Positions 1 through 2,397 of a stretch of DNA of 64,000 nt are shown here, one piece after another. The DNA is from Chloroflexota bacterium. GTDB taxonomy: Bacteria; Chloroflexota; Limnocylindria; Limnocylindrales; CSP1-4. Below the pieces are notes generated by a model, which worked only from the letters and a program-made list of their open reading frames with translations, had not been told where the DNA came from and ran no database searches. Location: positions 45,224 to 109,223 of the forward strand of contig CAKKPP010000003.1 in the NCBI GenBank assembly GCA_919901745.1. The letters are read 5' to 3'. The position numbers were made by a program, and so were the translations under genes. Numbering within the stretch: position 1 is the first letter of the stretch; each line of letters starts with the position of its first letter.

Positions 1-180
1 GCGGCGCAACCCCAAAGGGTCTGTGGCACCAGCGGAGCGCGTACCGCGACTCGCGGCGCAACCCCAAAGGGTCTGTGGCACCAGCGGAGCGCGTACCGCG
101 ACTCGCGAGCGACGCCAGATGCGTCCCTCTACCAGCGGAACGCGTACCGCGCAGCCGCAAGCGGCCCGAACGCGTACCCG
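1..180. repeat. Tandem 52-bp repeat: two perfect copies (1-52, 53-104) plus a degenerate third; cut by the window edge
   Basis: gcggcgcaaccccaaagggtctgtggcaccagcggagcgcgtaccgcgactc occurs twice exactly, followed by a diverged copy keeping accagcggaacgcgtaccgcg. Confidence 0.9.
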
Positions 181-205: not shown

Positions 206-673
206 TCAGCGGCGACCGCGCTGGACATCGGCCAGTTCGCGAGCGACGTCCCGTCGCGCCTCGCGATCGGCGATATCGCGCCGGCGATCGTGGAGCTGTT
301 TTCCGCGGGCCAGGGCCAGTTCCAGTTTCGCCTTGCCCTTTCCCGTGATGTACAACCGGAGTGGCACGACCGTCAGGCCCTTGGCCTGGGCCCGTCCGAG
401 CAGTTCATCGATCTCGGACCGATGCAGGAGGAGTTTGCGCGTCCGTTTCGGCTCGTGGTTGTAGCGGTTTGCCTGTTCGAATGGGGCGATGTGGGCGCCG
501 ATCAGCCACGCCTCCCCGTTCTCGATTCGGGCGTAGGCGTCGGACAGGTTGACCTTGCCGGCGCGGATCGACTTGATCTCCGTTCCGGTCAGCACGAGGC
601 CTGCCTCGAACGTCTCGGTGATCGAGAAGTCGTGGCGTGCGCGACGGTTGAGGGCGATGGTCTTTTCGCCCAT
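206..673 (-). CDS. smpB: SsrA-binding protein SmpB
   Basis: MGEKTIALNRRARHDFSITETFEAGLVLTGTEIKSIRAGKVNLSDAYA is typical SmpB. Confidence 0.97.
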   Translation of the reverse strand: MGEKTIALNRRARHDFSITETFEAGLVLTGTEIKSIRAGKVNLSDAYARIENGEAWLIGAHIAPFEQANRYNHEPKRTRKLLLHRSEIDELLGRAQAKGLTVVPLRLYITGKGKAKLELALARGKQLHDRRRDIADREARRDVARELADVQRGRR

Positions 674-729
674 CGGGTGTGACTCCTTCGAACCCTGGGG
701 TGAATTGGTCCAGTGTGGACCGGACGCAC

Positions 730-757
730 GAGCGCCGGCCCTGTCGGGCCGGCGCTC
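730..757 (-). terminator. Strong GC hairpin, likely transcription terminator
   Basis: gagcgccggccc-tgtc-gggccggcgctc, 12-bp perfect stem; no clear T-tract. Confidence 0.6.
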
Positions 758-785
758 GAAGCTCTTCCACCCGCAGGGTGTCCGC

Positions 786-833
786 TTAGACGGTCATCTC
801 CTGCGAGGTGGTGCAGCTACTGTGGTCGATCAC
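786..833 (-). CDS. Candidate 15-codon micro-ORF (M)IDHSSCTTSQEMTV
   Basis: GTG start 9 nt after GGAGG of a perfect Shine-Dalgarno (AAAGGAGGTGAT, 839-850); stop TAA; hairpin downstream. Confidence 0.5.
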   Translation of the reverse strand: MIDHSSCTTSQEMTV

Positions 834-861
834 TGCACATCACCTCCTTTCGTTCCGCGCC

Positions 862-890
862 ACCCTACCCGAACACGCGGCCACGTGCAA
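862..890 (-). promoter_or_regulatory. Candidate sigma-A type promoter TTGCAC-N17-TAGGGT
   Basis: -35 at 885-890, -10 at 862-867, immediately upstream of the SD of the micro-ORF. Confidence 0.4.
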
Positions 891-1029: not shown

Positions 1030-2397
1030 TCAGGCGGCCCGCTGTAGGAGGAGCGGCTGTGCGGCCGTCCCCGTGAGGAGCTCGACGGCGCGGTCGAGGA
1101 CCGGGTCGCTTCCCGCAGGCACGTCCGTCGGAACCTCGACCGGCACGTCTGGTTCGAGGCCGATGTGGTGGATCCAGCGCTTGTCGGGGGTGAGCCACCT
1201 GGCCACGGTCAGGCGAAACCCGCCATTGTCGTTTTCGAGGGGGGTCCACTGCTGGACGGTGCCCTTGCCGAACGAAGTTTCGCCGACCAGCCGGGCCCGA
1301 CCCGTATCCTGGAGCGCGCCGGCGACGATCTCGCTCGCCGAGGCGCTCCCCCGGTCGATGAGGACGATGATTTCGATCGATGCATCCGTGGCCACACCGC
1401 CCTCCTCCGCCGTAGTGGGCGTCTGCTTGCCTTTCGAGTCCTCCTCCCAGAAGACCGGCCCTGTGGCGATGAACGTGCTGGCCACGGTGCGGGCGGCGGT
1501 CACAAACCCACCGGGGTTGCCCCGAAGGTCGACGATCAACCGGCTCCGCCCGGCATCGACATGCGCCTGCACCGCCTCGACGAAGGCCTTGGCGCCTGCG
1601 TCCGAGAACCCCGTCAGCCGCACGTAGCCGATCGTGCCGTCGGCTAGTTCCTCGCTGATCACCTCGCGCTGGGTGATGACGTCGCGCACGATCGAGATGT
1701 CGGTCGGCGGCCCACCGTCGCGCACAACCGTGAGGATGACCGTGGTGCCCTTCTTGCCGCGGATCCGATCGCGAGCCTCGTCGATGGACAGCCCATCGAG
1801 CGTGGATCCGTCAACCGCGAGGACGAGGTCGCCGGCCCGAAGGCCCGCCTTGAGTGCGGGTGAGCCGTCGATCGGGGCGATGATGACCAGCCGGCAGTCC
1901 GGACCCAACGTCGAGCAATCGGTGGGCGAACCGTCCCCGGCGCGCGTCCCGATCTCGGCACCGATTCCCTCGAACTGGCCGGAGATGCCCTGGAGGCTGT
2001 CGCGATACTCCTGGGAGGTCAGGTACGAGGAGTAGGGGTCCCCGATCGCCTCGATCATCCCCTTGATCGCGCCCTCGATGAGCGCCTTGCGATCGATCTC
2101 CCCACCGGCATATCGCTCGGTCACCGCCTGGTAGGCATCCCAGAACGGCTGGAACTCGGTCTCCAGTGCGGCCGGAGTGCCCGGCTGTTCCGCCGTTCGG
2201 CGACCGACGCTGTACCCCGACAGGAACAATGCGCTGCCGGCGAGCACGGCGACGAGAACGATCGCCGCCCCGAAGACGAATCGGCCGCGTCGCGGCGGTG
2301 AGCCGACCGGGATGATCGGGGCCGGCGCGTCGGTCGCGGGTTCGACGGAAGTCTCGGGCCATGCCGAGTCGGGGGCGGTGGGATCGAGGGGGTTCAT
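1030..2397 (-). CDS. ctpA: S41 family C-terminal processing peptidase (PDZ domain)
   Basis: N-terminal TM, PDZ region, [19 protein letters not shown] and [15 protein letters not shown]...GKGTVQ catalytic motifs. Confidence 0.93.

Follow-up and report, generated by a model that had tools for sequence, protein, structure and literature searches.

The stretch of DNA analysed here, referred to as the window, spans 64,000 nucleotides of a genome from the phylum Chloroflexota. On its minus strand, a gene for a C-terminal processing peptidase is followed by smpB, which encodes the SsrA-binding protein, and the spacer between the two genes holds a compact cassette. Reading the minus strand base by base confirmed the promoter, Shine-Dalgarno sequence (SD), GTG-initiated ORF, stop codon, small hairpin and 12-bp hairpin at the positions given in the original prediction. 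Two further pairings, P1 and P2, overlap the upstream ORF (uORF), and the 12-bp hairpin is termed P3. In the order of transcription, the features are as follows:

1030-2397, minus strand: ctpA/prc-type S41 C-terminal processing peptidase, the upstream neighbour, outside the leader (TIGR00225, 283 bits, above the cut-off)
862-890, minus strand: sigma-70-type promoter, TTGCAC (890-885), 17-nt spacer, TAGGGT (867-862), assigned from sequence and position-specific conservation
839-850, minus strand: full-length SD, AAAGGAGGTGAT, near the predicted 5' end of the transcript, assigned from sequence and conservation
786-833, minus strand: uORF of 15 codons, from GTG (833-831) to TAA (788-786), peptide MIDHSSCTTSQEMTV, assigned from frame conservation
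805-846, minus strand: P1, GAGGTG(AT)GTGCAG (846-833) with the ORF-internal CTGCACCACCTC (816-805), 12 bp with a 2-nt bulge, assigned from energy relative to shuffles
767-811, minus strand: P2, CCACC-UC-GCAGG of the ORF (811-800) with the post-stop CCTGC-G-GGTGG (777-767), assigned from partner-swap energy
769-779, minus strand: local hairpin ACCC-TGC-GGGT, an alternative to P2 that shares its 3' arm, assigned from sequence
730-757, minus strand: P3, a terminator-like 12-bp GC hairpin, GAGCGCCGGCCC-GACA-GGGCCGGCGCTC, with a 4-nt loop, assigned from sequence and double changes
206-673, minus strand: smpB, the downstream gene (NCBIfam NF003843, 208.6 bits; TIGR00086, 183.9 bits; both above the cut-off)

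The apical part of P2 contains the stop codon of the uORF, and P1 and P2 are mutually exclusive. P3 lies 56 nt from the start of smpB and is directly followed by GTGCGTCC, which contains no U-tract; "terminator-like" is thus the fitting description for this genome. Together with the smpB ribosome-binding site (RBS) region, the leader folds with z = -4.8 relative to shuffled sequences. The SD had been described as the only orphan full-length one, and this holds genome-wide for AAAGGAGGTG: the 3.04-Mb genome has three matches, the other two being ordinary RBSs that open long ORFs. No further copy of the leader was found in that genome. Two alternative starts, an ATG at 840-838 (MCSDRPQ, then stop) and a GTG at 838-836 (VQ, then stop), were rejected, as neither frame is conserved and their stops vary from 2 to more than 30 codons.

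Distribution and gene neighbourhood

A 211-nt query detected the cassette at the same site in all 25 genomes compared from the window's family, representing 25 genera, and recovered a 23-27-nt core in a second family. Among 177 genomes of the class, 155 contain the 20-nt SD/start core AAAGGAGGTGRTGTGCAGTG when up to two mismatches are allowed, and the reversed control gave no match. Genus g41 of family f5 lacks the core in eight of nine genomes, which suggests loss or strong divergence of the leader there. At the level of the phylum, 89 of 399 sampled genomes contain a core-like match, a few of these being chance hits (loci L081-L083). Almost all matches in a scan of GTDB fall within Chloroflexota, including Candidatus Limnocylindrales, Ca. 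Aquidulcis and Ktedonobacterales. The matches in Actinomycetota, Coriobacteriia, Bacillus and Methanophagales lead into ORFs that are long or rich in Lys, and they were discounted as chance occurrences; the other outside matches, in which the taxonomic label and the leader type disagree, are probably misnamed or misbinned contigs.

In every lineage, the promoter shows position-specific conservation, with a constant spacing of 10-12 nt to AAAGG. Its form is TTGC..-N17-TAcGgT in the smpB leaders and TTGACA-N17/18-TACAAT in a second set of leaders that precede birA. For the latter, found for example in Dictyobacter and Ktedonobacter, the transcript is expected to start 5-10 nt before AAAGGAGG.

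The next gene on the same strand is smpB at every locus of the class with enough downstream sequence. Among 120 GTDB contigs, the downstream gene is smpB in 88, birA in 13, greA in one and fur in one; the remaining 17 are truncated, unmatched by the queries used, or chance. According to NCBIfam identities, the birA loci are operons of the form birA-greA-lysS, birA-lysS or birA-lysS-serS, and one greA-lysS operon was also found. At L089/L151, the leader of a single lineage stands before a gene for a Fur-family regulator, rather than before birA or smpB. Upstream, ctpA is present in families f1, f2, f3 and f5, and no ctpA match was detected upstream of the leader in family f4 or at locus L020; as the association with smpB holds there as well, the linkage is to smpB. 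In most species 20-100 nt separate P3 from smpB, and in some the gap is only 20-26 nt, too short to hold another promoter; transcripts that cover smpB in these cases must originate at the leader or farther upstream. In the birA leaders, the gene starts about 100-300 nt past the hairpin.

The tail-specific (Prc) protease family includes CtpA, and some of its members degrade SsrA-tagged proteins in E. coli; taken together with smpB, this membership makes the neighbourhood read as a trans-translation locus. The tmRNA gene is on the same strand as smpB at 19 of 21 loci examined and lies 57-153 nt after it in 10 of the 21 (two entries, L026 and L146, are the same contig). In the window's genome, tmRNA is a separate gene at positions 40467-40839 of contig C3 (468-840 of locus L227), encoded on the strand of smpB and 4.6 kb downstream of it, and a tmRNA identity for the leader itself was rejected for that reason. 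Opposite-strand ORFs between tmRNA and smpB (L227 2453-4803) resemble, by eye, a urease accessory/ureC cluster. The stretch downstream of smpB is rich in repeats, with perfect tandem units of 52 bp and 15 bp and runs of N (L227 4927-5331; window 1-110 and beyond).

A conserved frame with a variable peptide

Selection on the frame was assessed in smpB leaders of the window's type (A1), comprising 79 distinct sequences, all from the window's family. In 79 of 79, an internal CCAC anchor lies 19, 22, 25 or 28 nt from the invariant GTG start, and the stop lies 23 or 26 nt from that anchor; every indel within the ORF is a multiple of three. From the stop to the next conserved strand, the spacing ranges over 8-19 nt and takes all residues modulo 3. 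Since the distances within the ORF agree modulo 3 and the post-stop spacer is free, the frame test shows the uORF frame to be under selection and, by the same test, the ORF to be translated. Across leaders, the uORF comprises 13-17 codons.

The encoded residues behave differently along the ORF. Codon 3 retains Asp or Glu and varies mainly at its third base (diversity 0.69). At Cys7-Thr8-Thr9, third-position diversity is 0.00 in the 79 sequences even though synonymous codons exist, indicating that the constraint there is on the RNA. Other families encode MSSSCHATTEAVR (f5), MSNDSCTTASREVGA (f2), MGDASGNPKTQ... (f4), MSERQCCAGSTNALHTDSMGEYRF (f38) and MDQCSRCTGSLTGSHTFPTKRVER (f21); frameshifts near the end of the ORF alter the C-terminus in f4, and type B leaders lack the Cys. 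Traits common across lineages are an acidic residue near codon 3 and, in most, a Cys at codons 5-8. As judged from these alignments, what lasts is the set of RNA pairings and the frame, while the peptide residues are replaced between lineages.

The outcome of the comparisons proposed with the original prediction is divided. Alignment of the spacer across related genomes bears out the cassette, retained throughout the family, and not the peptide, which is replaced elsewhere. Frameshifts in close relatives, cited there as evidence against the ORF, are missing from the smpB group of the window's own family, where all 79 ORFs are intact; small ones do occur close to the 3' end of the ORF in type B, which belongs to another family.

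Near the end of the uORF, the SD core recurs in several lineages as GAGGTG, encoding Glu-Val (A2 alignment columns 89-96; L228, L229, L231-L233), and this copy may act as an SD mimic. At L233, the post-stop TCACCTCC could pair with the GAGGTG copy or with the real SD.

RNA structures overlapping the uORF

The interior of the ORF is complementary to its own SD, and the pairing, P1, would sequester that SD. In types A1, A2 and A5 the duplex energy has a z of about -3 relative to shuffled ORFs; in types B and C, P1 is weak and no better than in shuffled ORFs. Across the 79 A1 sequences, 99.7% of the cells are paired and the helix is nearly invariant, so that this group yields no proof of P1 by covariation. 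P1 pairing is strongly suggested by these energies and complementarities. Single cases in other leaders, read from the alignments without statistics, agree with this: L103 pairs GATGTG with CACATC where its relatives pair GGTGTG with CACACC, and at L091, ACATCACCTCCTTTCG, located just 3' of the uORF stop, is a 16-nt perfect complement of that leader's own SD region.

The 3' half of the ORF can also pair with a post-stop segment, forming P2. In the MAFFT alignment of the 79 A1 sequences, the post-stop arm contains too many gaps for P2 to be counted by column, and P2 was judged instead by a partner-swap energy test, in which own partners gave -20.9 kcal/mol and swapped partners -18.4 +/- 0.16; a hand-fitted alignment was left uncounted, as fitting favours pairing. 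The equivalent in the birA leaders is a 13-bp helix that links the ORF to a second strand, about 150 nt distant and directly next to a U-tract terminator. This helix is 96.3% paired and shows 22 double-change cells where shuffles give 6.7 (0 of 500). A type B helix, with 94.6% pairing, shows 7 such cells where shuffles give 1.0; shuffle controls of this kind can be inflated by sequence relatedness, and slid controls, which keep the relatedness, are also far lower. P3 is 100% paired in the 79 sequences, and all 25 double-change cells fall within it. On this comparative evidence, P2 and P3 are RNA structures maintained by selection. U-rich tails 3' of the homologous hairpin occur in families f4, f5, f21 and f38, and none were seen in the window's family.

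According to folding of A1 leaders, the SD has an open probability of 0.12 in a transcript ending at the stop codon and of 0.38 once the post-stop strand has been made, which suggests that P2 relieves P1. A search for an antiterminator competing with P3 found none in equilibrium, as opposed to kinetic, folding: whether ribosome footprints were masked over any part of the ORF or transcripts were ended before the 3' arm of the terminator, P3 was unchanged, with a probability of about 0.8-0.96.

A probable translated leader and its known counterparts

The cassette is probably a translated 5' leader of the smpB mRNA, in which the state of the uORF sets continuation through P3 into smpB. Here, a dedicated promoter would start the transcript a few nucleotides before an extreme SD, and a ribosome would translate the uORF, whose coding sequence may fold back on the SD (P1) or pair just past the stop (P2), a choice that would precede the terminator-type hairpin P3. 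The uORF state (translated, stalled or P1-closed) would then most likely set transcription or processing past P3 into smpB and, where ssrA directly follows, into ssrA as well; in other Chloroflexota, the same device would operate before birA-greA-lysS operons. Read-through into either set of targets is probably coupled to translation of the uORF. As P3 is never replaced by another structure in folding, we infer the step from uORF translation to read-through, along with the condition sensed and the direction of control; the step may rest on co-transcriptional kinetics, a helix beside the exiting RNA, mRNA stability or a factor. Given smpB, our guess for the signal is translation stress. Counting against this explanation are a P3 that stays formed in folding whichever part of the ORF is masked, the missing U-tract of P3 in the window's family, a P1 that hardly varies in type A1 and does no better than shuffled ORFs in types B and C, and a set of targets (smpB, birA, greA, lysS and the one fur) with no obvious signal in common.

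That the ORF arose by chance within conserved DNA has a negligible probability: 15-codon ORFs are common by chance, yet the frame is conserved in 79 of 79 leaders, the cassette recurs in 25 of 25 family genomes and 155 of 177 class genomes, and the helix of the birA leaders covaries. An "unannotated small protein" was among the original proposals, and a secreted or intracellular peptide acting in trans, with hairpins that merely end the transcript, would account for the conserved frame, the acidic codon 3 with its variable third base and the Cys recurring near codons 5-8 in most lineages. This reading is nonetheless quite improbable. The invariant third positions at Cys7-Thr8-Thr9 point to RNA constraint, and other lineages encode largely different peptides; in type B the Cys is missing and frameshifts close to the end of the ORF are tolerated. 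In addition, the strand of the ORF covaries with segments that are non-coding, and the leader always precedes the same few operons. As a main function, a small protein is unsupported, because lineages exchange the residues and yet keep the RNA pairings.

An independent gene for a small RNA or for a decoy that binds ribosomes, merely located between ctpA and smpB, could have the observed promoter, terminator-like hairpin and extreme SD, but is very improbable given that the association with smpB persists without a ctpA neighbour, that the same leader precedes birA/greA/lysS in other lineages and that the hairpin comes as close as 20 nt to smpB. Likewise, the suggested "anti-SD ribosome-binding RNA" acting alone fits poorly with an SD that serves to initiate a frame-conserved ORF and with an anti-SD-like segment that can pair with that SD in cis. 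Unlikely, too, is a leader that acts mainly at the post-transcriptional level and without regulated termination, either through stabilisation or processing of the mRNA by P2 and P3 or through translational coupling, with the uORF bringing ribosomes close to the smpB start. It is favoured by a P3 that folding does not switch and that has no U-tract in the window's family, and by the 20-100 nt between P3 and smpB in most species; against it stand the U-rich tails past the homologous hairpin in four families (f4, f5, f21 and f38) and the birA genes, whose starts, about 100-300 nt beyond the hairpin, are too distant for translational coupling. An amino-acid attenuator of the trp/his/cys type was rejected: there is one Cys codon, absent in type B, and the targets are not amino-acid biosynthesis genes.

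A "leader peptide for smpB", also among the original proposals, is the reading that fares well, with a selected frame, its own promoter, structured RNA, smpB always next in the class and some gaps of 20-26 nt. Shared with uORF leaders in general are a short selected ORF in line with the gene and covarying RNA structure that overlaps the ORF; with no antiterminator found, the leader is not classed as a classical attenuator. Our verdict, drawn from comparative sequence analysis, is a putative new family of translated 5' leaders of the uORF-attenuator type, located always directly upstream of smpB or birA/greA/lysS genes. Evenly balanced, in our judgement, is the broader proposition that Chloroflexota possess phylum-wide translation-sensing leaders through which the use of a very strong RBS governs trans-translation (smpB, frequently accompanied by tmRNA), with birA-greA-lysS as the target in other classes, the uORF serving as SD mask and post-stop partner. 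If the leader senses ribosome trouble, translation would feed back through it on the factors that rescue stalled ribosomes, in a phylum whose RNA biology is little explored. A conserved micro-ORF explained by RNA structure and frame, not by its peptide, is also relevant to small-protein annotation, and the covarying helices and recurrent move between smpB and birA-greA-lysS operons make the proposal directly testable.

No Rfam family reached its gathering score in the window or over the leaders of seven related loci. The best sub-threshold match over the leader, the Caulobacter sRNA CC2171 (RF01867), scored 20.9 bits against a gathering score of 75 bits, and the leader is thus not a member. 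Nor was an earlier report of this RNA, or of a translated leader of smpB or smpB-ssrA, found in open-licence papers. Translational attenuators of the erm type combine a strong-SD leader peptide with alternative hairpins formed by the leader-coding sequence, and their targets are rRNA methylases. The smpB leader resembles them in the first two respects; it differs in its targets, which are housekeeping genes, and in that the SD to be sequestered would be that of the leader itself. In E. coli, the toiL uORF of topAI-yjhQ responds to several classes of ribosome-targeting antibiotics, and there, too, the translation state of a short uORF is proposed to alter RNA structure and expression of the next gene (PMC12121999). 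In the toiL system, the hidden site is the downstream gene's RBS and termination depends on Rho (PMC12121999), whereas the leader described here would mask the SD of the uORF itself and is followed by a hairpin of the intrinsic-terminator type. Attenuation of B. subtilis bmrC/bmrD similarly places a leader ORF and a terminator-type hairpin before the gene, the target being a drug transporter rather than smpB or birA-greA-lysS (PMC4191407); the competing antiterminator expected of such ribosome-mediated attenuation is what folding did not find here. The general kind, a uORF leader, is known; new are the family, its targets and the probable masking of the uORF's own SD by its coding sequence.
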